A stretch of DNA of 64,000 nt from Egicoccus sp. AB-alg2 (lineage in GTDB: Bacteria > Actinomycetota > Nitriliruptoria > Nitriliruptorales > Nitriliruptoraceae): the NCBI RefSeq assembly GCF_041821065.1, contig NZ_JBGUAX010000009.1, positions 124,001-188,000 of the forward strand, given 5' to 3'. A program made the position numbers and the translations under genes. The notes under the pieces were generated by a model. The model was not told where the DNA came from. It was given only the letters and a program-made list of their open reading frames with translations, and ran no database searches. Of the stretch, positions 1 through 13,268 are shown one piece after another. How positions within the stretch are numbered: position 1 is the first letter of the stretch; each line of letters opens with the position of its first letter.

Positions 1-187
1 CGCCCCATCCCGGGACCACCTCCTGCGCGTCCAGGCCGGCCAGCACCATGATCAGCACCGGCATCCCGATCGGGACCAGGAGTCCGGAGGTGTCGCGGGC
101 GACCATGCGTGACTCGGCCAGGCCCAGCTGCAGCCACGCGTCGGGGCCGGGCCGGAGCCCGCGACCGGGGAGGGCGTGCGTGCTCAT
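1..187 (-). CDS. ABC-2 type transporter permease, N-terminal part (truncated by window edge)
   Basis: Only the first 62 residues are in the window. The start ATG (187-185) overlaps the stop of the upstream ATPase gene in an ATGA arrangement, which fixes the start and shows translational coupling. After a short cytoplasmic N-terminus the sequence becomes hydrophobic (SGLLVPIGMPVLIMVLAG), as expected for the first helix of an ABC-2 type export permease. Its job would be to form the membrane channel driven by the neighbouring ATPase. Substrate unknown; it could export the product of the ATP-grasp cluster upstream on the same strand. Confidence 0.6.
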   Translation of the reverse strand, partial: MSTHALPGRGLRPGPDAWLQLGLAESRMVARDTSGLLVPIGMPVLIMVLAGLDAQEVVPGWG

Positions 188-933
188 CGGCGACCTCCGT
201 CGGCGTCGGTGGTCGTGCGGGAGGTGAGCGCCAGATAGGCGTCCTCGAGGCTGGCCGAAGGCGGCAGCCCGGCGGCCGCCGCCAGCCCGTCGGGCCGGTC
301 GAGGGCCACCACCCGTCCGCGGTCGAGCACCGCGACGCGGTCGCAGAGGCGCTCCACCTCCTCCAGTTGGTGGCTGACCAGCACGATCGTCACGCCCTGG
401 TCCCGCAGGTCCTCCACCAGGCGCCAGATGCCGCGGCGCGCCTCGGGGTCCAGCCCGGTGCTCAGCTCGTCCAGGAGCGTGACGCGCGGGTCACCGACCA
501 GGGCCAGGGCGATGGACAGCCGCTGCTGCTGTCCGCCCGAGAGGTCGTCGAAGCGGGTGTCGCGCTGCTCGTCCAGGCCCAGTGAGCGCATGAGCTCGTC
601 CGGGTCACGCCCCCGCGGGTAGAAGGAACGGAACAGCGTGACCAGCTCGTGGACCTTCAGGGCCCCGTGCAGAGCGGCACGCTGCAGCTGCACACCCAGC
701 ACGCGGCGCAGGGCGGAGCGGTCACGCTCCGGGTCCAGGCCGAGCACGCGCACGCGGCCCCGGTCCGCCCGTCGCAGGCCCGCGACGATCTCGACCGTGG
801 TCGTCTTGCCGGCGCCGTTGGGGCCGAGGACGCCGAAGATCTCGCCGTGGCGTACCTCGAAGCTGACGTCGTCGACCGCCACGGTGTCGCCGTAGCGACG
901 GTGCAGTCCCTCGACCTCGATGGCTGCGGGCAC
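184..933 (-). CDS. ABC transporter ATP-binding protein (ABC-2 exporter type)
   Basis: About 249 residues, the usual length for an ABC-2 exporter ATPase. Visible are a Walker A (GPNGAGKTT), signature LSGGQQQR, Walker B ending VTLLDELSTGLD and an H-loop (LVSHQ). Walker B reads DE-L-S rather than the usual DEP. I chose the GTG at 933 because an AAGGGAA ribosome site lies just upstream and the domain starts directly after it; an ATG at 1032 would add 33 basic residues with no homology-like character. The stop overlaps the permease start, so the two are one transporter. It lies 126 bases downstream of the last leftward ATP-grasp gene and could be its export arm. Confidence 0.9.
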   Translation of the reverse strand: MPAAIEVEGLHRRYGDTVAVDDVSFEVRHGEIFGVLGPNGAGKTTTVEIVAGLRRADRGRVRVLGLDPERDRSALRRVLGVQLQRAALHGALKVHELVTLFRSFYPRGRDPDELMRSLGLDEQRDTRFDDLSGGQQQRLSIALALVGDPRVTLLDELSTGLDPEARRGIWRLVEDLRDQGVTIVLVSHQLEEVERLCDRVAVLDRGRVVALDRPDGLAAAAGLPPSASLEDAYLALTSRTTTDADGGRR

Positions 934-1059
934 GGCCGTTCCCTTCGTCGTCCGATCGACATGGACGGTAGGGACGGGTGCGGCTGGCCTCGCGTGTCGC
1001 GCGTCATGACCTCGACCCATGACGATCGACACCCCCGGCCCCGCTGGCGGAGGGTGTGG

Positions 1060-2331
1060 TCACGCACGCCCGTGACCGGATGCGGCCCCGGGAACCGGCC
1101 GCGGTCGGTGCTGGTCGTCGGCCCAGGCCCGCAGCAACCCCCGGTAGTGCTCGACGAAGTGGTCGTGCTCGTGCGCGGGGAAGGTCCCCTTGACGGTGTC
1201 GACGACCAGCCCGTCGAACCAGTCGGAGCGGACGAGATCCACCATCGCTTCGTCGACGTGCCCGAGATGCTCGGCGCAGAACGCGTCGTAGGCGTCCTGT
1301 TCGAAGTACTCGTCGGTCAGCCGGTGGTAGGCAGCGAGCTTGTCGCCCTCGTCGAGGTCCTGGTCGTCGGCGATCTGGAACCAGCGATCGGGGTCGAGGT
1401 TGATCCGCATGTTCCGACTGGTGGCGGCACAGAACACGCTCCACTTCAGCAACGTCTTCATCGCCCACGGGAAGTAGTAGTGCAGGCTCGTGATCGACAC
1501 GTCCGGGCAGGCGTTGGCGTAGTCGATCGGCTGGACCAGCCCGTCGGTCACGAGCGTCTCGCAGGAGTTGAACTCCCACCGGAAGAACGCGTTGACGATC
1601 CGCCCGATCGTGCGCACCTCCTGCCCCACCCCCGGGGACAGGAAGTCGTGATCGACGAGGTAGCGGGCATGGTTCGGCTGCGACGGGTCGAAGTGCATCG
1701 TCATGGTCTCCGCACCGATCGACAGGGTGCGCACGAACACGTCGAAGTCGACCGCGGCCTGCAGGTGCATCAGCCGCTGGCCCGAGTCGTCGTACGCCTC
1801 CAGCAACTCGTCGGCGTCGTCGATCCGGGTCACTCCCACCCAGGCCCCGCCGTCGTAGGGCTTCATGTACAGCGGGAACCCGACCTGCTGGGCGATCTCC
1901 TCGAGGTCGAAGGCCTGGTTGTAGCGGGCCGCGGTGTAGGCGAACCGCGAGTCCTGCGGCGGGTGCTTGTGCGGCAACAGCCACGTCTCGGGGACGTGCA
2001 GCCCGAGTCGCATCATGGCGCAGTAGGCGGCGTGCTTCTCCATCGCCTGGAACGTGAACGGGTTGTTGAGCAGGTAGACCCCGTCCATCATGGCGACCTT
2101 CTTCAGCCACTCGCGCGGGACGTAGTACCAGTGCGCGAGCCGGTCGATCACGAGGTCGTAGCGCGGAACGGCGCGCAGCCGGAACGGTTCGATCGTGACC
2201 CGTTCGGTGCGGAACGTGTGGGTCTCCCCGCCGTGCTCGATCTTGAGGTCGAGCCGCCGGACGAGCTCCTCGAAGGTCGACGACCAGTCCTCCTCCATGC
2301 CCAGCAGCAGGCCGATCAGGTGCTCGCTCAC
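1060..2331 (-). CDS. ATP-grasp domain protein A (predicted carboxylate-amine ligase)
   Basis: 423 residues from a GTG start. ATP-grasp enzymes join a carboxylate to an amine through an acyl-phosphate. The nucleotide-binding Lys is in FPLYMKP (about K157) followed by a Gly-rich loop (YDGGAWVG), and a metal-binding-like DYAN lies near residues 270-273. It is the most divergent of the four ATP-grasp proteins here: it lacks the RDK..MKQ.L..AG motif of the other three and has a long Trp/Asp-rich helical C-terminus. It is third in a leftward operon, 62 bases after protein B. Substrate cannot be read from the sequence. Longer upstream open frame is a shadow of gene B. Confidence 0.75.
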   Translation of the reverse strand: MSEHLIGLLLGMEEDWSSTFEELVRRLDLKIEHGGETHTFRTERVTIEPFRLRAVPRYDLVIDRLAHWYYVPREWLKKVAMMDGVYLLNNPFTFQAMEKHAAYCAMMRLGLHVPETWLLPHKHPPQDSRFAYTAARYNQAFDLEEIAQQVGFPLYMKPYDGGAWVGVTRIDDADELLEAYDDSGQRLMHLQAAVDFDVFVRTLSIGAETMTMHFDPSQPNHARYLVDHDFLSPGVGQEVRTIGRIVNAFFRWEFNSCETLVTDGLVQPIDYANACPDVSITSLHYYFPWAMKTLLKWSVFCAATSRNMRINLDPDRWFQIADDQDLDEGDKLAAYHRLTDEYFEQDAYDAFCAEHLGHVDEAMVDLVRSDWFDGLVVDTVKGTFPAHEHDHFVEHYRGLLRAWADDQHRPRPVPGAASGHGRA

Positions 2332-2393
2332 GTTCCGTCTCCCGTGCGGTCGTTGCCGTTGGTCGACCCGCCCCTCCGGCGGGCCGCGGTGGG

Positions 2394-3611
2394 TCACGCC
2401 GCGTGCAGGTGTAGTTCCGCGGCGAAGCGGTCGGCCATCTCCAGGGTCGCCCCGAGGTTCGGGTGGCGCACGATCAGCACGCCGTCGGCGGTCACCGAGG
2501 CCCGCCAGTCCTTGCGGGGCGCGCCGATGGGGGCGAGGTCGAGGGTGACGACGTGGTCGCCGTACTCGCTCAGCAGCCGCGTGAGCCCCTCCACGTGGGT
2601 GATGCGCCCCTGCCCGCGGGCACGCTTGAAGACCGCCGCGGCGTTGTGACGCCGCTCGATCGGCCGCGACACCCGACCGTGGACGACCGCCTCCGCCCAG
2701 GCCACGAACAGGTCGCTCTCCGTGGCGTGGTTCATGACCTCGACGGTCCGGGCCCCCGGCGACCGGGCACCGATCTCGCCGAAGACCACCTCGCCGTCGG
2801 GCTTGCGGTACCACTCCATGTGGGTGAACCCGTCGCGGAATCCGAGCGCGTCGAGCACCGCCCGACCCATCTCGCGCCCGCCCTGCAGGTCGGGGACCTC
2901 GAGGTCGCGCAGCGCGACGTACACGGGGCTGATCCACTCGTTCTGCCGCATGACGAGCGGGCGGGGCCGGTACCAGCCGATGTTCTCGAACAGCACACGC
3001 CCGTCTGCGCAGATCGTGTCGTAGGTGAACTCCTCGCCGTCCACGAACTCCTCGACGCTGACCACCGGCACCGGGCGGAGCAGCGGCAGCACCTGCTCGA
3101 GCTGCCCGGCGTCGTCGACCCGGTACGTGTCGGCGGAGCCGTAGCCGGCGATCGGCTTGACGATCAGCGGGTAGCCGATGCGTTCGGCGATCGCCCGGAC
3201 CCCGTCGGCGGTCGTCGCGGTCTGATGCCACGGCGTCCGGATCCCGGCCTGGTCCAGCCGCTGCTTCATCAGCTCCTTGTCGCGGAACCGCTCGGTCTGC
3301 TCGCCCGTGAGCCCGCGGACACCGAGTGCCTCCCGCAGCCGGGCGGCGAGCCCCATGTAGGGCTCCCACAGGCACTCGACGCGCTCGAACCGGACGTGAC
3401 CGAGCACCGAGGCGACCGCGTCCAGGGCGGCGCGCTCGTCGGTGAGCGACCGCACGTGCAGGTGGTGGGTGAGCGCGTCGCGGGCCGTCGGCGGCAGCGC
3501 GTCGACGTGCTGGTCGCCGAGCCCGATCACCCGGGCGCCGACCTGGGCGAGCCCGCGGGTGAACTGGGCCATCTCCGCCGGGTAGCCCGGCGAGATCATC
3601 AGCACGTCCAT
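2394..3611 (-). CDS. ATP-grasp domain protein B (predicted carboxylate-amine ligase)
   Basis: 405 residues. It has an N-terminal Rossmann-like pre-ATP-grasp region (MDVLMISPGYPAEMAQF), then the linker FRDKELMKQRLDQAGI (about 109-124), the ATP-binding Lys in YPLIVKPIAGYGS (K152), and a metal-binding segment FGEIGARSPGA (E279). These match carboxylate-amine ligases of the carbamoyl-phosphate-synthase-like ATP-grasp fold. B, C and D are clear paralogues (shared RDK..MKQ, VEEFV-type and TH(M/L)EW(Y/F) motifs). The start ATG lies 12 bases after the end of gene C, so they are cotranscribed. Probably adds one unit to an amide-linked product; substrate unknown. Confidence 0.82.
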   Translation of the reverse strand: MDVLMISPGYPAEMAQFTRGLAQVGARVIGLGDQHVDALPPTARDALTHHLHVRSLTDERAALDAVASVLGHVRFERVECLWEPYMGLAARLREALGVRGLTGEQTERFRDKELMKQRLDQAGIRTPWHQTATTADGVRAIAERIGYPLIVKPIAGYGSADTYRVDDAGQLEQVLPLLRPVPVVSVEEFVDGEEFTYDTICADGRVLFENIGWYRPRPLVMRQNEWISPVYVALRDLEVPDLQGGREMGRAVLDALGFRDGFTHMEWYRKPDGEVVFGEIGARSPGARTVEVMNHATESDLFVAWAEAVVHGRVSRPIERRHNAAAVFKRARGQGRITHVEGLTRLLSEYGDHVVTLDLAPIGAPRKDWRASVTADGVLIVRHPNLGATLEMADRFAAELHLHAA

Positions 3612-3624
3612 GGTTCCTCCCGTC

Positions 3625-4866
3625 TCAGCCGAGTTCGACGCGCAGACCGCCGAGGATCCGCTTCACGGCGTCGACGACCACCCCGGTGTCGTGGTCACGC
3701 ACGATGACCCAGCCTTCGCCCTCGTAGCCGTCGCCGGCCGGCTGCCCCGGCGTCGGCACGCGGGCCTCGGCCACCAGGTGTCCGAGCTCGGCCTGGAGCG
3801 CGTCGATCCCGTGCACGGCGACCACGCGGCTGCCGGGGGGCGCCGACCCGGCGGGATGCTGCCCCCGCAGGTACACGGTGCCGACGGCCCACCGGCGCTC
3901 GGGCGGTTCGAAGCGGTCGAGGATCTCGATCCCCGCCCAGGCGCGGTGGAGATCGACGTCGTGGGCGTAGGCGATGGCCGCGCTGAGCTGCGCACCGGGT
4001 GGCCGGGCCGCGACCTCGGAGACGGCGACGCTGCCGTCGCCGCGCCGGAACCACTCCAGGTGGGTCAGGCCGCGCCGGTGCCCGAGCGCCCGGACCGCGG
4101 CAGGGCCGGCGGCGTCGATGCCGCCGTAGGTGTCCGCGTCGAGCTCACGGGGCAGCAGGACGGCCCACTGCATCCAGGGGTTGCGGAGCACCTCCAACGG
4201 GGTCGGCAGGTAATGGGAGATCGAGCGCCACACGACGTTGCCGTCGACCGTGACGCTGTCGAAGGAGTGCTCGTCACCGACCACGAACTCCTCGAGGAGC
4301 GCCGGCGCGTCGCCCGACGGTGCCTGCACCGCGAGCCAGCCGCGCAGCGCGTCGGGACCGTCGAGGCGGAAGGTGTCGCGTGCGCCGGCGCCCGCAGGGG
4401 GTTTGACGACGACCGGGAACCCGACGTCGTCGACGAAGCGGGTCGCCTCGTCGGCGGAGCGCACGAGCCGGTGCCGCGCACAGGGCACGCCCGCCTCGCG
4501 CAGCACCTGCTTCATCCGGCTCTTGTCCCGGAAGTTGCGTGCGGTCGCGACGTCCATGCCGCTGATCCCGAGCGACTCGCGCACCTGCGCGAGCGGGACC
4601 TGCAGCTGTTCGAGGATCCCGACCAGCCGGTCGACCCCGCCGAGCTGTCCGGCCAACCCCCGCACGGCGGCTTCCAGCTGGGACGGATCGAGCGCGTCGT
4701 CGACCCGCCAGTGGGCGACCAGGCGCTCGCGGAGGTGGGGTGGCAGCCGGTCGGCGGGCTCGTGGGTCACGATGCCCACGCGGACGTCCGGGAGGTGCGT
4801 CGCTCCCGTGACGAAGCGTTCGGTCGCCTCGAGCAGGTACGGGGCGACGAAGACCGCGGTGACCAT
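3625..4866 (-). CDS. ATP-grasp domain protein C (predicted carboxylate-amine ligase)
   Basis: 413 residues, first gene of the leftward arm. Motifs: FRDKSRMKQVLREAGV (about 112-127), ATP-binding Lys in FPVVVKPPAGAGA (K155), TH-LEWF, and VSEVAARPPGAQ near residue 280, where the acidic residue would hold magnesium. The ATG at 4866 is supported by a TAGGGT -10 box only seven bases upstream, so the mRNA is probably leaderless. The frame stays open far upstream but that part is the shadow of gene D. Paralogue of B and D; with them it suggests successive ligation steps. Confidence 0.83.
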   Translation of the reverse strand: MVTAVFVAPYLLEATERFVTGATHLPDVRVGIVTHEPADRLPPHLRERLVAHWRVDDALDPSQLEAAVRGLAGQLGGVDRLVGILEQLQVPLAQVRESLGISGMDVATARNFRDKSRMKQVLREAGVPCARHRLVRSADEATRFVDDVGFPVVVKPPAGAGARDTFRLDGPDALRGWLAVQAPSGDAPALLEEFVVGDEHSFDSVTVDGNVVWRSISHYLPTPLEVLRNPWMQWAVLLPRELDADTYGGIDAAGPAAVRALGHRRGLTHLEWFRRGDGSVAVSEVAARPPGAQLSAAIAYAHDVDLHRAWAGIEILDRFEPPERRWAVGTVYLRGQHPAGSAPPGSRVVAVHGIDALQAELGHLVAEARVPTPGQPAGDGYEGEGWVIVRDHDTGVVVDAVKRILGGLRVELG

Positions 4867-4929
4867 GCCGCGGACCCTAGCCCGACTGGACGGGCTGCCG
4901 GCAGGGACGATGGGGCTAGGGTCGCGATC
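4867..4929. promoter_or_regulatory. Mirror-symmetric divergent leaderless promoters
   Basis: The 63-base gap between two ATP-grasp genes contains a perfect 11-base inverted repeat, GACCCTAGCCC (4873-4883) and GGGCTAGGGTC (4913-4923). Each arm holds a TAGGGT hexamer in the direction of its gene, and each hexamer ends exactly seven bases before its start codon (ATG at 4866 leftward, GTG at 4930 rightward). No ribosome site is seen on either side. This is what two leaderless promoters sharing one operator-like palindrome would look like. Promoter assignment is inferred from the hexamers; no good -35 box was seen. Confidence 0.65.
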
Positions 4930-6153
4930 GTGAACGTCGTCTTCGTCGAGCCGCACTTCCCGCGCAACCAGCGGGAGTTCGTGCGCGGGCTCGCCGCCGT
5001 CGGGGCGACCGTGGTGGGCATCGGCGAGTCGCCCCTCGACGCCCTCGACCACGACCTCCAGGGCTGGCTGCACCACTACGAGCAGGTCCCCTCGGTCACC
5101 GACGTCGGCCGCATGACCGAGGTCGTGCGGTGGGTCCAGAGCAAGCTGTGGGTCGACCGACTCGAGGCCACGATCGAGGCGCACACGCTGCCCGCGGCCC
5201 ACGTCCGGGAGGCCTGCGGGATCCCTGGTACCTCCTCGCGGACCGCCTGGCTGTGCCGCGACAAGCCGTCGATGAAGCAGGTGCTGCGCGACGCGGGCGT
5301 CCCGACGGCCGCGTCGGCCGCGGTCGACAGCGCGGCCCAGGCCCACGCCTTCGCCGCCGACGTCGGGTTCCCGCTGATCCTGAAGCCCCGGGCGGCGGCC
5401 GGAGCGGCCGGCACCGTGCGGGTCGACGACCGCGACCAGCTCGACCATGCGCTTGGCGTGTTCGGCTCGGAGGGGACCGACTCGATCGCGGTCGAGGAGT
5501 TCGTCGAGGGCCACGAGGGCTTCTACGACACGCTGACCGTCGACGGGCACGTCGTCCACGACTTCGTCTCGCACTACTACCCGAACGTGCTCGAGGCGAT
5601 GCGCACCCGCTGGATCTCGCCGCAGTTCGTGGCGACCAACCGCCTCGACGAGGCCCCCGACTACGAGGAGGTCCGCGAGATGGGCCGGCGGGTGATCGCC
5701 GGGCTCGGGATCGGCACCTCCGCCACGCACATGGAATGGTTCTTCGGACCGAAGGGTCTGCGCTTCTCGGAGATCGGGTGCCGGCCACCGGGCGTCGGGG
5801 CGTGGGACCTGTACTCGGCCGGCAACGAGATGGACCTGTACCGGGAGTGGGCCCACGCGATCGTGCACGGCGGCCCCTCGCAGCATGCGTCGCGACGCTA
5901 CGCGGCCGGCATCATCGCGCTGCGCCCCGACGCCGACGGGCGGATCACCGGCTACTCGGGACTGGACGAGGCCCAGCAGCGGTACGGGTCCTGGGTGATC
6001 GACGCCCACCTGCCCGAGCCCGGCACGGCGACGCAGCCGATCGAGGCCGGGTACATGGCCAACGCGTACGTGCGGATGCGGCATCCCGACTACGACGAGC
6101 TGCGTCGCATGCTCGACGACGTCGGACGGACGGTGCAGGTCCACGCCTCGTGA
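4930..6153 (+). CDS. ATP-grasp domain protein D (predicted carboxylate-amine ligase)
   Basis: 407 residues from a GTG that sits seven bases after a TAGGGT -10 box (leaderless). N-terminal Rossmann-like segment NVVFVEPHFPRNQREF, then CRDKPSMKQVLRDAGV (about 109-124), ATP-binding Lys in FPLILKPRAAAGAAG (K152), VEEFVEG, THMEWFF and FSEIGCRPPGVG (E281). It is the divergently transcribed paralogue of B and C. Its stop overlaps the start of the next gene (GTGA), so translation is coupled to the peptidase E-like protein. Product unknown; amide or peptide bond formation is the family expectation. Confidence 0.83.
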   Translation: MNVVFVEPHFPRNQREFVRGLAAVGATVVGIGESPLDALDHDLQGWLHHYEQVPSVTDVGRMTEVVRWVQSKLWVDRLEATIEAHTLPAAHVREACGIPGTSSRTAWLCRDKPSMKQVLRDAGVPTAASAAVDSAAQAHAFAADVGFPLILKPRAAAGAAGTVRVDDRDQLDHALGVFGSEGTDSIAVEEFVEGHEGFYDTLTVDGHVVHDFVSHYYPNVLEAMRTRWISPQFVATNRLDEAPDYEEVREMGRRVIAGLGIGTSATHMEWFFGPKGLRFSEIGCRPPGVGAWDLYSAGNEMDLYREWAHAIVHGGPSQHASRRYAAGIIALRPDADGRITGYSGLDEAQQRYGSWVIDAHLPEPGTATQPIEAGYMANAYVRMRHPDYDELRRMLDDVGRTVQVHAS

Positions 6154-7073
6154 ACGACGTGCTGCTCCTCGGTCCGCAGCGCCGACCCACGCTCGCCGAC
6201 GCGGTGGCCGACCTCGGTCTCGACGGGCCGATCGCGACCGTCAACGCCGGGTGGCAGGAGCGCGAGCCGGACGATCGCGAGCTCGACGAACTGCTCGGGG
6301 AACGCAGCGTCAACCTGCGCCTGTACGCACGCTGGGCCGATGCGCTGCGCGACGACGACGAGCTGGCGCAGGCCGACCGCGCCCGACGCGACCGGATCGA
6401 CGAGCTGCAGGCGCTGTACCTGCGGCGCCTGCACCACGCGATGGAGGGCATCAGTGCCCTCCGGCACCACGCCGCGCGCGACCCCGGGCTGCGCGACGCC
6501 GAGATGGCGGACGCGGTCGAGGAGATCCGTCGTCTCGACGCCCGCCACCTCGACCGGATCGACGAGGTCGAGGCGGACTTCGCCCAGCAACTCCGGCTGT
6601 CCGAGCGCCCCGTCGTGGCGGAGCACCGGGCGGCGGTCGCGCGCCTCGTCGGTGGGACCGAGGCCGTCGCGATCGCCGGCGGCCACGTCGCCGTCCTGTT
6701 GCACTGCCTGCGCCTGTTCGGACTGACCGGGGTGCTCGGCGAGCGTCCGGTGATCGCGTGGTCCGCGGGGGCGATGGCGATCTCCGAACGGGTCGTGCTC
6801 TACCACGACCTGGCCGTGCACAGTCCCGGGCACGCGGAGGTCCACGCACGTGGACTCGGCCTGTGCCGGGGCGTCGTGCCGCTCCCGCACGCCCGACGTC
6901 GGCTGCGGATCGACGACCACGAACGCATGGCCCTGCTGGCACGGCGGTTCGCGCCCGCCCGCTGCGTCGTGCTCGACGACGGTGCCCGGTTGTCGTGTCC
7001 CGACGGAGCGACGGGCGCCACCGACCTGCCGACCGTGGGGCTCGACGGGCACCTGCACGCGGAGGCCAGCTGA
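6150..7073 (+). CDS. Type 1 glutamine amidotransferase-like / peptidase E-like hydrolase
   Basis: 307 residues from a GTG overlapping the previous stop. The C-terminal half has the fold signature of peptidase S51/cyanophycinase relatives: IAGGHVAVLLHCLRLFG (about 175-191) and the nucleophile elbow IAWSAGAMAIS with Ser near 205. Residues about 55-165 form a charged, helical insertion not usual in peptidase E, possibly a coiled coil. S51 enzymes cleave Asp-containing dipeptides or cyanophycin, so a role in trimming or recycling the product of the ATP-grasp enzymes is a reasonable inference. The stop TGA overlaps the next ATG (TGATG). Confidence 0.72.
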   Translation: MNDVLLLGPQRRPTLADAVADLGLDGPIATVNAGWQEREPDDRELDELLGERSVNLRLYARWADALRDDDELAQADRARRDRIDELQALYLRRLHHAMEGISALRHHAARDPGLRDAEMADAVEEIRRLDARHLDRIDEVEADFAQQLRLSERPVVAEHRAAVARLVGGTEAVAIAGGHVAVLLHCLRLFGLTGVLGERPVIAWSAGAMAISERVVLYHDLAVHSPGHAEVHARGLGLCRGVVPLPHARRRLRIDDHERMALLARRFAPARCVVLDDGARLSCPDGATGATDLPTVGLDGHLHAEAS

Positions 7074-8227
7074 TGTTGCACGTCGGCGCCCAGCCGCTCG
7101 CGATCGACCAGCTCCGCCACGGCGGCGCCGACGCCGCGGCCGTGGACCGCTTCCTCGACGCGCACGACGTCCCCCTCGTCGAGGGTGCGACGGGCACCTT
7201 CCTGTGGCGCGGCGAGGCGGACGCGGTCCGCGTCCAGCACTGGGTCGTCGGCCTGCCGAACCCGCTGCCGATGGAGCGCCTCGACGGGACCGACCTGTGG
7301 TTCGCCGTGACCGACCTGCCAGAAGGTTCCCGGGTCGAGTACCGCCTGGAGGTGGTGCACGGCGACCACGTCGACAACGTCGAGGACCCGCGCAACCCGA
7401 ACCACGCCCACAACCCGTACGGCTCGAACTCGGTCGTCCACGGCACCGGCTACGAGGTCCCCGACTGGATCGAGCTCGACGAGGACGCGCGCCGTGGCGA
7501 GCTACGCGACCTCGTGCTGCACAGCGCCGCGCTCGGCCGCAGCGTGCACGCCAAGGTGTACCTGCCGGCGCGCTACCGGCCGACCGCGCGCTACCCCCTG
7601 CTGGTGGTCCACGACGGTACCGACTATCTCACCTTCGCCGCCGCGCAGACGGTGCTCGACAACCTGATCCACCGGCTCGACGTCGCCGAACTCGTCGCCG
7701 TGTTCCTCGATCCCGGCGACCGTCTGGTCGAGTACGCGAACCACGAGGGCCATGCACGCTTCGTCGCGGACGAGCTCGTGCCCGAGCTCGAACGGGCGCT
7801 GCCACTGATCGACCACCGCGGGGGTCGCTGCCTGATGGGCTCGAGCTTCGGGGCGATCGCCGCGTTCTCGACCGCGGTGCGCTATCCGGACCGGTTCGGT
7901 TCGCTGCTGCTGCAGTCGGGGTCCTTCGCGTTCACCGATATCGGCTCGGATCACGGCGGCGGGCCGGTCTTCGACCCGGTCGTCGCGTTCGTGAACGCCT
8001 ACCGGGCCGAGCCGACCCGGGTCGCGGACCGGCTGTACGTCACCTGCGGGACGTACGAGCCGATGATCCGGGGCAGTCGCGCGATGGTGCCGGTGTTCCG
8101 CGGCACGGGTGCGGAGGTGCGCTACGTCGAGGCGCGCGACGGCCACAACTGGGAGAACTGGCGCGATCGCCTGCGCGACGGGCTCGCCTGGGTGTTCCCC
8201 GGCCCACAGAAGTTCGTCTACGAGTGA
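7073..8227 (+). CDS. Alpha/beta-hydrolase, enterochelin-esterase-like, with N-terminal domain
   Basis: 384 residues. Residues 1-150 resemble the beta-rich N-terminal domain of Fes-type esterases; the catalytic part follows, with an esterase nucleophile in MGSSFGA (Ser about 258), YPDRFGSLLLQSGSF, and a C-terminal catalytic His in RDGHNWENW (about 358). In Fes the family cleaves ester links of a siderophore. Here the setting (four ATP-grasp ligases, a S51-like hydrolase, a second esterase) suggests hydrolysis or transfer on the cluster product. No signal peptide, so cytoplasmic. The ATG overlaps the previous stop by one base. Confidence 0.8.
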   Translation: MLHVGAQPLAIDQLRHGGADAAAVDRFLDAHDVPLVEGATGTFLWRGEADAVRVQHWVVGLPNPLPMERLDGTDLWFAVTDLPEGSRVEYRLEVVHGDHVDNVEDPRNPNHAHNPYGSNSVVHGTGYEVPDWIELDEDARRGELRDLVLHSAALGRSVHAKVYLPARYRPTARYPLLVVHDGTDYLTFAAAQTVLDNLIHRLDVAELVAVFLDPGDRLVEYANHEGHARFVADELVPELERALPLIDHRGGRCLMGSSFGAIAAFSTAVRYPDRFGSLLLQSGSFAFTDIGSDHGGGPVFDPVVAFVNAYRAEPTRVADRLYVTCGTYEPMIRGSRAMVPVFRGTGAEVRYVEARDGHNWENWRDRLRDGLAWVFPGPQKFVYE

Positions 8228-8235
8228 CATGAGGT

Positions 8236-8261
8236 CCCGGCTGGCAGCGGTGGCAGCCGGG
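8236..8261 (+). other. Hairpin between the two esterase genes
   Basis: CCCGGCTG and CAGCCGGG form an 8-bp stem with a 10-base loop in the 83-base gap before the last gene of the cluster. There is no T-run, so it may slow or stabilise the transcript rather than end it. Confidence 0.35.
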
Positions 8262-8310
8262 TACGAGTCGATACGGCAACCGGGAGGACGGCGGTGGGCG
8301 AGGTGGACGC

Positions 8311-9036
8311 GTGAGGCAGGTCGAGCGCTGGCACTCGGACCGCATCGGGTTCGACATGACGATGGCCCGGTGGGGGCACTGGGGCACACCGGTGCTGGTC
8401 TTCCCGACCGCCGGCGGCGACGCCCTGGAGATCGAGCGCGAGGGGTTGGTGACCGCCTGCGGCGAGCTGATCGAGGCAGGCCGGGTGAAGCTGTACTCCT
8501 GCGACAGCGTGGCCGGGAAGGCGATGCTCGAGGCCTGGGGGGCTCCCGAGCAGCGGCTGCGCCTGCTGGGTGCGTTCCACGCCTACGTCCGGGCCGAGGT
8601 GATCCCGGCGATCCACGCCGACAGCGGCGGACCTGCGCTGCCCATCGTGGCGGCCGGCGCCTCCATCGGCGCCTTCAATGCGCTCGCCATGGTGTGCCGG
8701 GAACCGAGGTGGTTCTCGACCGCGATCTGCATGAGCGGCACCTACGACGTCCAGCGCTTCTACGACGGCGCCTGGGACGACGAGCTGTTCTTCGCCTCGC
8801 CCCTGCACTTCCTTCCCGGCCTGGGAGGCGAGCAGCTCGACCAGCTCCGCCAGCGCTTCGTCCTGCTCGCGTCCGGGCAGGGTGCGTGGGAGGACATCGA
8901 CGAGTCCTGGCGGGTCGCCGACGTGCTCGGGTCGAAGGGGGTCCCCAACCGGGTCGACGCCTGGGGTCCGGAGTGGGAACACGGGTGGGGCACCTGGCAC
9001 CGGATGCTGCCGACCTACCTCGACGAGCTCGCCTGA
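8311..9036 (+). CDS. Alpha/beta-hydrolase, putative esterase family
   Basis: 241 residues from a GTG. Compact alpha/beta-hydrolase related to the putative-esterase (PF00756-like) family: oxyanion region FPTAGGDALE (about 31-40), nucleophile elbow AAGASIGAFNA (Ser about 118), and a conserved-looking C-terminal WGTWHRMLP that would supply the catalytic His. No signal peptide. Last gene of the rightward arm, separated from the first esterase by 83 bases. The ATP-grasp to esterase order suggests it acts on the same unknown product. A housekeeping role cannot be excluded. Confidence 0.78.
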   Translation: MRQVERWHSDRIGFDMTMARWGHWGTPVLVFPTAGGDALEIEREGLVTACGELIEAGRVKLYSCDSVAGKAMLEAWGAPEQRLRLLGAFHAYVRAEVIPAIHADSGGPALPIVAAGASIGAFNALAMVCREPRWFSTAICMSGTYDVQRFYDGAWDDELFFASPLHFLPGLGGEQLDQLRQRFVLLASGQGAWEDIDESWRVADVLGSKGVPNRVDAWGPEWEHGWGTWHRMLPTYLDELA

Positions 9037-10888: not shown

Positions 10889-11668
10889 ATGGCGAACGGG
10901 ACGAGTGCTGCCGTCGATCAGGCTGCGCGGCTCGACGAGATCGGATTCCCGGAGTTCACCACGAAGCTGGTGACCGACGTGTTCGACGCCTTGGTGGCGT
11001 CGAACCTGCGTCAGACGGAGTCCTTCGCGGAGCTGCTGGGGGCCGTCGGCAAGGAACTCAGCGAGTACATCGACGACACCAAGGACGACATCGGCGGCGA
11101 GGAGATCCTGCAGTTCCTCGCCGCGGTCGCGCCGCCGGACACGGACGACGGGTCCGAGCCCAGCAAAGTCCGTGTCGGCGGCACCCTGGACGGCGACGAC
11201 GCCGACGCACTGAACACCGCACTCGCCGTTCCGGGCGAGGAGATCCCCGACGTCGCCTCCAGCGGCGCCGTCGATCAGGCAGCTTTCGACGCCATCGTGG
11301 AAGCAGCGGCCCGGCGTCTGGCCGCGAACAAGTACGACCTGCTCTCGGAGATGGTTCGCCAGGGCCTGCTGCGCCTGGTCGTGGAGACCGGGACGATCGA
11401 GACGCGGCTGACGTTCACGACCTACGGCTCGACCTTCTCGGCCCGCAACAGCCGTGACTACACGCGCCGTGCCACGGCCTTCCGTGCGCAGGCGCGGACG
11501 GGGTCCGTGCTGTCGAAGTGGGTGAGTGCCTCCGGGTCCGCGAGCCGCACCTCGGTGGCGGTCCGCACCACGAGTGAGCAGGATCGCGACACCAGCGGGA
11601 GCCGGGTGCAGATCTACGGCGGGGTCACGATCAACTTCAAGACCGACTACCTGCCGCTCAACCAGTAG
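10889..11668 (+). CDS. Unrecognised cassette protein 1
   Basis: 259 residues; GGGGAAGGGGAG lies just before the ATG. No recognised domain. The N-terminus DEIGFPEFTTKLVTDVFDAL is followed by a predicted amphipathic helix and then an acidic linker. The C-terminal half has TGTIETRLTFTTYGS, a Ser/Ala/Thr-rich basic stretch and a final strand SRVQIYGGVTINFKT. Gene 2 shares both ends of this layout. The alternation of a helical N-terminus and a beta C-terminus recalls DUF2589-type proteins, but I cannot confirm this. No signal peptide or membrane segment, so cytoplasmic; probably acts in a complex with its two neighbours. Confidence 0.7.
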   Translation: MANGTSAAVDQAARLDEIGFPEFTTKLVTDVFDALVASNLRQTESFAELLGAVGKELSEYIDDTKDDIGGEEILQFLAAVAPPDTDDGSEPSKVRVGGTLDGDDADALNTALAVPGEEIPDVASSGAVDQAAFDAIVEAAARRLAANKYDLLSEMVRQGLLRLVVETGTIETRLTFTTYGSTFSARNSRDYTRRATAFRAQARTGSVLSKWVSASGSASRTSVAVRTTSEQDRDTSGSRVQIYGGVTINFKTDYLPLNQ

Positions 11669-11676
11669 CGCGTCCG

Positions 11677-12483
11677 ATGCCGGAGATCCAGATCCCCGTC
11701 GACCTCGGGTTCACCGAGTTCGTCACGTCCCTGCTGTCGGAGGTCATGAACTCGATCGTGGTCGCGCAGAGCGAGCAGGAGGAGAAGCTCGCCGAACTCG
11801 CCGCGGTCGCGGCGTCCGACCCGGACGACTACGCCGACCACCGGCTCGACGACGCGGCCGTCGACGCCTTCCTGACGCGGCTCTTCCCGCCGACGGCCGA
11901 CGACCGACCGCACGATGCCGTCCGCGGCGCACCGTATGCACCGGCGGGTGAGGACGGCCCCGAGTCGCCGCCGTACCAGGACACGCTGGACGTCGCCCTC
12001 GGCGGCGGGGACTTCAACCCGGAGCTCGGGCATCTGCTGCTGCGCGGGGTGCGCAAGATCCGGGCCGCGGCGCGACGGCGGCTGGCCGAGCAGGAGCTCG
12101 CCGTCGCCCGGCACCTCACCGAACGCGGCGTGCCGCGCGTGCTGGTCGACGCGGGACGCATCCGGGCGAAGCTGACGTTCGAGGCCCTGCAGTACCGGGA
12201 CGCCGACACCGTCGAGGAGGCGGAAGAAGCGGACGAGGGCGGTGGCCCGGTCGACGACGCGACCGAGCCGGCCATGGCGTCGACCTCGGCCTCGTCCCTG
12301 CTCAAGCGGCAGGTGCTGCTGGCCGGGCGGCTGCCGGGGCTGCATCAGACCTCGGTGGTGCCGCAGGTGCTCCGCGACGTGCGCCTGCGCGTCCACTCGG
12401 CCGACGAGCGGGACCCCGGCACCGGGTCCACGCGCGCCAACGTCTACGGCGAGGTGGAGCTCACCTTCAAGACGGTCCCGTGA
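11677..12483 (+). CDS. Unrecognised cassette protein 2 (related to protein 1)
   Basis: 268 residues, starting 8 bases after gene 1. The N-terminus DLGFTEFVTSLLSEVMNSI matches protein 1, and so do the middle strand (AGRIRAKLTFEAL) and the last strand (TRANVYGEVELTFKT). Between them are acidic, Glu/Asp-rich linkers and a basic helix (KIRAAARRRLAEQEL). The shared start and end show the two arose by duplication. No known catalytic motif, signal peptide or membrane segment. Its stop overlaps the start of gene 3, so all three are made together. Confidence 0.7.
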   Translation: MPEIQIPVDLGFTEFVTSLLSEVMNSIVVAQSEQEEKLAELAAVAASDPDDYADHRLDDAAVDAFLTRLFPPTADDRPHDAVRGAPYAPAGEDGPESPPYQDTLDVALGGGDFNPELGHLLLRGVRKIRAAARRRLAEQELAVARHLTERGVPRVLVDAGRIRAKLTFEALQYRDADTVEEAEEADEGGGPVDDATEPAMASTSASSLLKRQVLLAGRLPGLHQTSVVPQVLRDVRLRVHSADERDPGTGSTRANVYGEVELTFKTVP

Positions 12484-13268
12484 ACGTCACGCCGGATCGA
12501 CTCGACCTCGCCGAGTTCGTCGCCTCGCTGGTCGGCGAGGTCCGGTCGGGCGTGCTGGCCAGCCACGAACTACGCGACCACGACCTCGAGGTCGTCGGCG
12601 CCACCATCCGGGTGGGACGCGAACCGGAGGACACCGCATCCGACGACGACCTCGCCGGCGAGGAGGCCGAGTCCGCCCGGGGGCCCGGCGCCGTGGTGAC
12701 GCCGCCACGCCCGTCGCCGATCACGGCGCGCCCCGAACTGGAAGGCGGTGGGTGGGAGGTGGAGCTCGTACTCGGCCAGGGCCAGTCGCTCTTCCTCGGT
12801 GCGGACCAGCCGGTCGAATCCGTCGCGTTGCCGATGGCCGTGGACGTGTGGCGTTCGCGGGACCTGACGCAGCTCAAGGGCATCGACGTCGAGCGCTCCC
12901 GCCGGTTGGCCGGGGAGGGGGTCCGCACCATCGGTCAGCTGCTCGAGCTCGACGAGACGGCGATCGCGGGCATCGTCGCCCGCCAGGGATCGCACCGCTA
13001 CCTCGACTACTGGGTGCAGGCGGGGTTGCTCCGCATGCCCGTGCCGCGACTCGTGGCCTCACGCGCCGATGCGTTTCGGCTGTCGGCGCTGGCGGGCCGC
13101 TCACCGGCCTCGCTGCGGTCGCTCGTCGGCCGCGACGTGCTGTCGGCGTCGCAGGCCAGCCAGCTCTTCGACCTGTTCGCCGCCTGGGGGACGGCCCTGG
13201 ACCGTGCGGCGATGGCGTCCGTCACGCTCGGTGACGTCCGGGCGGCCACCCGCGTCGAGAAACACTGA
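12480..13268 (+). CDS. Unrecognised cassette protein 3 with helix-hairpin-helix-like repeats
   Basis: 262 residues from a GTG overlapping the previous stop. The N-terminus RLDLAEFVASLVGEVRSGVL is a third copy of the cassette motif. After an acidic linker come two repeats resembling helix-hairpin-helix folds of the DUF4332 kind: LKGIDVERSRRLAGEGVRTI (about 131-150) with its following helix, and LSALAGRSPASLRSLVGRDV near 200. Such modules often bind DNA or act as protein contacts. No catalytic residues recognised. It could be the adaptor that links the other two proteins to a target. Confidence 0.65.
   Translation: MNVTPDRLDLAEFVASLVGEVRSGVLASHELRDHDLEVVGATIRVGREPEDTASDDDLAGEEAESARGPGAVVTPPRPSPITARPELEGGGWEVELVLGQGQSLFLGADQPVESVALPMAVDVWRSRDLTQLKGIDVERSRRLAGEGVRTIGQLLELDETAIAGIVARQGSHRYLDYWVQAGLLRMPVPRLVASRADAFRLSALAGRSPASLRSLVGRDVLSASQASQLFDLFAAWGTALDRAAMASVTLGDVRAATRVEKH

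Follow-up and report, generated by a model that had tools for sequence, protein, structure and literature searches.

A conserved set of four ATP-grasp ligases and three hydrolases linked to glycogen genes in several bacterial phyla

The window analysed here is a stretch of 64,000 nucleotides from Egicoccus sp. AB-alg2 (contig NZ_JBGUAX010000009.1, positions 124,001 to 188,000), and near its start lie seven genes that encode four ATP-grasp ligases (A to D), a serine hydrolase of the S51 type and two esterases (E1 and E2). The coordinates were re-derived from the sequence, and the families agree with the initial annotation, an earlier reading of the letters alone that had described four ATP-grasp genes, an S51-type hydrolase and two alpha/beta-hydrolases at 1060-9036. 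The overlaps described there in the rightward arm are also present (4 bases between D and the S51 gene, 1 base between the S51 gene and E1), as is the spacing of 126 bases between A and an ABC ATPase gene on the same strand. The seven genes form a genuine multi-enzyme module that is conserved. The main result of this work is that the module lies again and again among glycogen genes, a point that the initial annotation overlooked.

Table 1. Genes of the cluster and its transporter neighbour, with positions in the window and the basis of each assignment
Gene	Product	Length (amino acids)	Position	Strand	Basis and remarks
A	ATP-grasp ligase	423	1060..2331	-	Model and fold search; extra C-terminal helical region
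B	ATP-grasp ligase of L-amino-acid-ligase type	405	2394..3611	-	Pfam; own clade
C	ATP-grasp ligase of L-amino-acid-ligase type	413	3625..4866	-	Pfam; own clade
D	ATP-grasp ligase of L-amino-acid-ligase type	407	4930..6153	+	Closest solved chain 4wd3; own clade
S51	S51-like serine hydrolase		6150..7073	+	PF03575; S205 in AWSAGAM, D220, H247
E1	Esterase of enterobactin-esterase (Fes) build		7073..8227	+	PF00756; S258/H358
E2	Small PF00756 esterase		8311..9036	+	PF00756; S118/H224
ABC ATPase	ABC transporter ATPase (DrrA-like), neighbour, inconsistent partner		184..933	-	Profile match, recurrence, paralogue rank

Recurrence of the gene set

Recurrence was followed in 80 named loci (L numbers below), the best-scoring 80 of 262 S51 relatives found by a contig scan with the S51 alignment. 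They come from at least five phyla (Actinomycetota, Myxococcota, Acidobacteriota, Planctomycetota, Eisenbacteria) and from metagenome-assembled genomes labelled otherwise. Counting by tblastn with the window genes, rather than from the gene calls of our own simple script, gave S51 in all 80 loci, E1 in 77, D in 58, E2 in 47, A in 45, B in 43, C in 36 and an ABC ATPase in 13. Where at least 9 kb was available on each of the two sides (49 loci), all seven genes were found in 17 cases, six genes in 6 and three only in 14.

Genes missing from a locus were also sought in the rest of the host genome. For A, the search covered 24 of the 35 loci that are without it, and A was present in 24 of 24. For B it covered 26 of 37 such loci: a full-length B (at least 45% identity) was found elsewhere in 13 of 16 non-actinobacterial genomes, with a fragment in one more and nothing in two, and in 0 of the 10 actinobacterial genomes searched. 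A phylum sample of 296 genomes contained S51 in 5, each together with a strong A match (at least 340 bits). Strong A occurred in 22 of the 296 genomes overall, and the hypergeometric probability of the co-occurrence with S51 is about 1.4e-6. At an E value of 0.001 A matched 41 of these genomes, most matches beyond the strong ones being weak. The prediction that the seven genes recur together is thus confirmed over several phyla. The set thereby withstands the test that the initial annotation had named as speaking against a shared pathway, namely separate occurrence of the genes in relatives.

Linkage to glycogen and alpha-glucan genes

In several phyla the gene set lies in physical linkage with glucan genes, glycogen synthase among them. 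Glycogen-type genes (GlgA, GlgB, GlgC, GlgP, GlgX or MalQ) were found in 19 of the 80 loci (L072, L078, L081, L086, L094, L102, L107, L121, L122, L123, L126, L127, L129, L132, L133, L138, L141, L142 and L144), a count in which each seed's own locus is included by construction, as the glucan seed proteins came from the loci themselves. Glycogen synthase (GlgA) is present in 11 of the 80, far above chance, the expectation scaled to 80 loci being about 0.26. A search with PF08323 in 50 host genomes found a glycogen synthase in 10 of the S51 loci of these genomes (50 loci), where the density of such genes would predict 0.16. In this search 40 genomes matched at an E value of 0.001 and 34 held a strong synthase (46 genes in total), strong being our own cut of at least 110 bits. 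The coordinates from the independent Pfam search, compared by hand with the GlgA loci, agreed in 10 of 10.

In some loci glucan genes lie inside the set. In the planctomycetes L078 and L127 GlgA separates D from C, with B-S51-E1 and A coming next, and in L094 (Thermoanaerobaculia) genes for a phosphorylase-like protein, MalQ, a GH13 enzyme, GlgA and GlgC flank and interrupt the set. In L063, from the phylum of the window, C-B-S51-E1-GlgC run in one direction and A-E2-GlgA in the opposite one, neighbouring genes either overlapping by 1-4 bases or standing at most 42 bases apart; D adjoins C, and GlgB and a phosphorylase come after. Genes of the GlgE route are found near A in L058, L157 and L158: GlgB is about 7 kb or less from A in all three, with a maltokinase also in L058 and L157. 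Most other actinobacterial A loci examined contained no glucan gene. Many neighbours were first named by eye and Pfam was run on selected ones. This verified GlgC, GlgA, GlgB and the phosphorylase of L063, GlgA of L142, MalQ and the GH13 enzyme of L094, the maltokinase (Mak_N_cap) and GlgB of L058 and a debranching enzyme in L132, and gave general amylase domains only for the presumed TreS of L058.

The linkage is also seen where B, C and D are detached from S51: in 8 of 11 GlgA-bearing genomes D or B has GlgA at a distance of about 1.5 kb or less, with the order D-GlgA / C-B in Acidobacteria bacterium Mor1 and D-GlgA-B in Sulfidibacter corallicola and Acanthopleuribacter pedis. In four loci the cluster-linked synthase is divergent, with about 117-119 bits to PF08323 (L142:18394-19908, L150:7691-9175, L151:8031-9536 and L152:7280-8773), and three of these four genomes hold a stronger copy elsewhere.

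A single predicted protein of 1224 amino acids with Glycogen_syn and phosphorylase domains is encoded at L132:472-4146, about 4.5 kb from D.

Ligases, hydrolases and related cassettes

Pfam assigns B, C and D to ATP-grasp families, and A matches Dala_Dala_lig_C alone, under the cut-off. The AlphaFold2 model of A, built with 38 sequences, has a mean predicted local distance difference test (pLDDT) value of 90.6. Foldseek matched it to Ddl, RimK and ArgX/LysX structures with template modelling scores of about 0.4-0.5 over the query, and these matches place A among the ATP-grasp proteins, with a distant Ddl/RimK-like fold. The model also contains an additional helical region at residues ~280-406. 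Relatives of A share 41-76% identity, with two distant ones at 27%. In the family alignments, which comprise the proteins inside set length limits, residues K157, R201, E258, D270, N273 and D277 of A are kept in 49 of 49 sequences, K112, K152, E279 and R283 of B in 30 of 30, E284 and R288 of C in 30 of 30, and E281 and R285 of D in 38 of 38, the Glu and Arg of B, C and D being positions of the ATP-grasp motif.

The description of B, C and D as close paralogues had to be revised. Because the pairwise identities are 36% (B/D), 35% (C/D) and 33% (B/C), they are better regarded as diverged paralogues. A FastTree phylogeny of 30 B, 30 C and 38 D proteins (98 in total, each labelled by its best hit) resolved three separate clades with support values of 1.0, 1.0 and 0.97, which shows that each of the three ligases is an orthologue group of its own. 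The separate clades and the kept active sites suggest that the three proteins would carry out three distinct, conserved steps. Across phyla D is 55-80% identical, one weak hit excepted. A plasmid search with D gave, among the 15 matches listed of 50, relatives at 25-36% identity and no likely orthologue.

The S51 protein is a member of the S51 family by its PF03575 score (28.1 bits against a cut-off of 23.9), and it carries a long stretch (residues ~75-150) ahead of the catalytic part. Its catalytic residues, which we take to be a Ser/Asp/His triad by analogy with PepE, are retained in most of the 80 loci (S205 in 78, D220 in 77, H247 in 72). Both E1 and E2 exceed the PF00756 cut-off, and their catalytic pairs are invariant in the family alignments (S258 and H358 in 69 of 69 E1 sequences, S118 and H224 in 52 of 52 E2 sequences). 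Sequence matches to CBM48-CE1 proteins led us to consider E1 as a CBM48 glucan-binding esterase, and its fold search also lists CBM48-CE1 esterases (Z 28.5). This assignment was weakened, as no E1 sequence out of 43 matches CBM48 and Fes fits better. A hydropathy scan of the window proteins revealed no N-terminal signal segment that stands out, as expected for proteins in the compartment of glycogen.

The S51 histidine is lost in 5 of 10 actinobacterial loci whose genomes are without B and C, compared to 3 of 70 others. At position 247 it is replaced by serine in L080, L088, L093, L105 and L114 (Flexivirga, Luteipulveratus, Metallococcus), and whole-genome searches of these genomes found no B and no second full-length B-like protein able to be C. 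The loss of the histidine where B and C are absent may be a small supporting sign for a coupled pathway.

The phylum sample also contains a second and commoner arrangement, the short cassette E1'-E2'-A, in which E1' and E2' are about 29-38% identical to E1 and E2. It is found in other actinobacteria (L047, L049-L057, L061, L062), often with an ABC-2 transporter alongside, and neither S51 nor B-D was found beside these cassettes. In L062, genes that by eye are RimK-like, AstE/AspA-like and RimB-like (2454-5292) lie about 4 kb from the A-E2'-E1' cassette. More distant relatives of A (L042, L043) adjoin a permuted ATP-grasp gene and a GCS2 ligase gene; in L043 Pfam found GCS2, with the permuted ATP-grasp domain under its cut-off. 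Among the 80 loci, 9 encode a GCS2-family ligase, which is YbdK-like in 2 and of a single other kind in 7, and 3 encode an AstE/AspA-type deacylase. In L072 (14184-17110) a GCS2-type ligase joined to CBS domains is followed by an AstE/AspA deacylase, and comparable pairs are present in L127 and L144. Neighbouring Suf-type genes within L082 and L119, named by eye, were set aside. Elsewhere in the window, at 10889-13268, there are three successive rightward genes with N-termini that look alike by eye, for which Pfam gave one weak HHH_5 match only.

Proposed pathway and known systems

ATP-grasp enzymes use ATP to convert a carboxylate to an acyl-phosphate, which is then attacked by an amine or, in depsipeptide ligases, by a hydroxyl group. 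Enterobactin esterase cuts serine esters, and S51 enzymes cut acidic dipeptides or cyanophycin. Among solved structures D comes closest to L-amino acid ligases, and by this chemistry B, C and D most likely form amide bonds and A an amide or an ester. A pathway can then be proposed in which B, C and D each turn a carboxylate into an acyl-phosphate and successively contribute one amide bond apiece, yielding an amino-acid-based compound. Ligase A would form a further amide or ester bond, possibly onto a carrier or acceptor. The S51 hydrolase, E1 and E2 could cleave amide and ester bonds, by which the compound would be trimmed, released or recycled. The families thus fit the multi-step ligation with trimming hydrolases that was proposed in the initial annotation. 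Export by the neighbouring transporter, also part of that proposal, found no support, and the glycogen link was missed in it.

The linkage to glucan genes moves the interpretation from a secondary metabolite towards carbon storage. Together with the enzyme classes and the hydropathy scan, in which no N-terminal signal segment stood out, it suggests a cytosolic amide or ester compound made with or on glycogen. The most likely reading, at about even odds in our judgement, is that the cluster encodes a pathway of the cytosol that is conserved and is coupled to the synthesis of alpha-glucan (glycogen). Our leading guess for the compound is a glucan-peptide conjugate, bound to glycogen or deposited with it. 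The most explicit form of this proposal would be that many bacteria in several phyla make a hitherto unseen glycogen that bears amino-acid or peptide groups, which the four ligases build and the S51 hydrolase and the two Fes-like esterases remove, some lineages having a dedicated divergent synthase; this form is tentative and on the unlikely side.

Several observations weigh against a coupling to glycogen. In 61 of the 80 loci there is no glucan gene in the stretch covered, many of these stretches ending at contig ends. The 50 loci of the PF08323 search were picked after the glucan-gene count was known and include 10 of its 11 GlgA loci, and the probability values assume independent genomes and gene positions, which they are not. 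Ten of these 50 genomes, for none of which a genome-wide search for GlgE was made, are without a PF08323 match, including the Geodermatophilus-type L075, L079 and L085. Among the genomes with a detached B/C/D block (G numbers), GlgA is about 41 kb away in G356 and about 67 kb away in G358, G324 has no link, and G340, which is without PF08323, still holds B, C and D together. For the Nannocystis loci L091 and L098 the distance between the cluster and glycogen synthase exceeds 1 megabase. In the genome of the window itself no physical linkage to glucan genes was found: the cluster is on contig C9, GlgE and GlgB are on C8, and C3 and C4 carry the PF08323 matches. At its N-terminus E1 has a domain like that of enterochelin esterases, with Enterochelin_N matched by 34 of 43 proteins, and no recognised glucan-binding CBM48 (0 of 43). 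By hydropathy only, E2 and S51 have an internal 19-residue segment (1.78 and 1.74) near the catalytic region. As for the S51 histidine, the genera that have lost it are related, and a single event may account for the losses; the residue is retained in five further loci that are without B and C, as well as in L087 and L136, whose genomes also show no clear B.

Three other explanations can be considered. The product could be a soluble, cytosolic, peptide-like nitrogen reserve or osmolyte that is merely co-regulated with glycogen and trehalose and has no bond to a glucan. Storage and stress genes are often co-regulated, and the trehalose genes OtsA and OtsB near A in L047 (labels by eye only), TreS/maltokinase near A in L058, the inclusion of cyanophycinase in S51 and the GCS2-family amidoligases mentioned above would all be consistent with such a reserve. 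By itself, however, it leaves unexplained why in several phyla GlgA has its place within the set, next to D, C and B, and why two ester hydrolases with intact sites are present, and we consider it rather unlikely. A second possibility is protein modification, in which glycogen enzymes or some other protein would receive amino acids from the ATP-grasp enzymes and be stripped of them by the hydrolases. RimK, which adds amino acids to a ribosomal protein, and ArgX/LysX are among the fold matches of A; the nearest solved relatives of D, however, are amino-acid ligases, and four ligases with two esterases seem excessive for a tagging system, which makes this option improbable. Least probable of all is the secondary-metabolite cluster of the initial annotation, with a short peptide exported through the adjacent ABC transporter: the ATPase gene is close and co-oriented, and a related ABC ATPase and permease adjoin short E1'-E2'-A cassettes in some actinobacteria, but an ABC ATPase recurs in only 13 of 80 loci, and two other proteins of the same genome match the ABC ATPase from a related cassette better than the window's ATPase does. 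On these grounds the transporter was rejected as a part of the system, and the wide, high conservation, as seen for D, is unlike that of a variable metabolite cluster.

The metabolism of glycogen in bacteria is commonly considered to be well charted. If the coupling to glycogen is true, a seven-gene module that occurs across phyla and repeatedly includes or adjoins glycogen synthase would represent an overlooked step or product of this metabolism. If glycogen bears amino-acid groups, carbon and nitrogen storage would be united in one polymer, across several phyla. Named isolates that carry the set are Nannocystis, Geodermatophilus and Sulfidibacter, with Nannocystis exedens, Geodermatophilus sabuli and Sulfidibacter corallicola as cultured carriers. 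A literature search, judged by titles and the opening lines of abstracts, found no description of the gene set; most subscription journals were outside its coverage and prior mention is possible. A 2024 review of prokaryotic alpha-glucan enzymes (PMC11046441) contains neither 'ATP-grasp' nor 'esterase' in 300,000 of its 445,374 characters.

Comparison with known systems shows resemblance in the individual enzymes and differences in their combination. The L-amino acid ligases share the ATP-grasp fold, as seen from the matches of D to 4wd3 (E value 4e-15), 3vot (2e-9) and BacD (2e-7), and their LAL_C2 domain is weakly detected in B and D. The proteins fall outside the BacD family itself (NF053745), with 28.3 bits for B, 32.7 for C and 27.8 for D against a cut-off of 850, and, unlike BacD, BL00235 and 4wd3, the window set comprises three co-conserved copies in a glycogen context. 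For E1, the model aligns with the Fes structure 3mga over 348 residues (Z 34.2, root-mean-square deviation 2.9) and most E1 sequences share Enterochelin_N. The identity to Fes is 22%, however, and the score of 95.7 bits is below the NF007758 cut-off of 222, which puts E1 outside that family. The S51 protein resembles PepE, cyanophycinase and DR1070 in passing PF03575 and in almost always retaining Ser-Asp-His, but differs in the long pre-catalytic stretch and in its E values of 0.13-0.19 to solved members.

The cyanophycin system also combines an ATP-grasp ligase with an S51 hydrolase in a storage context. However, the window proteins reach at most 39.9 bits against the CphA cut-off of 850 (TIGR02068), outside that family, with no Mur-ligase domain in the Pfam tables, and the window set adds esterases and glucan genes. 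Neighbourhoods with several amidoligases and hydrolases were reportedly described by Iyer and colleagues in 2009, and GCS2 and permuted ATP-grasp genes are likewise found near relatives of the window set. A further parallel is C7orf58, a fusion of an ATP-grasp and a PC-esterase domain and a predicted modifier of cell-surface polymers (PMC2824669). C7orf58 differs from the window set in being animal, secreted and of a different esterase fold, and has in common with it the pairing of an amino-acid ligase with an esterase (PMC2824669).

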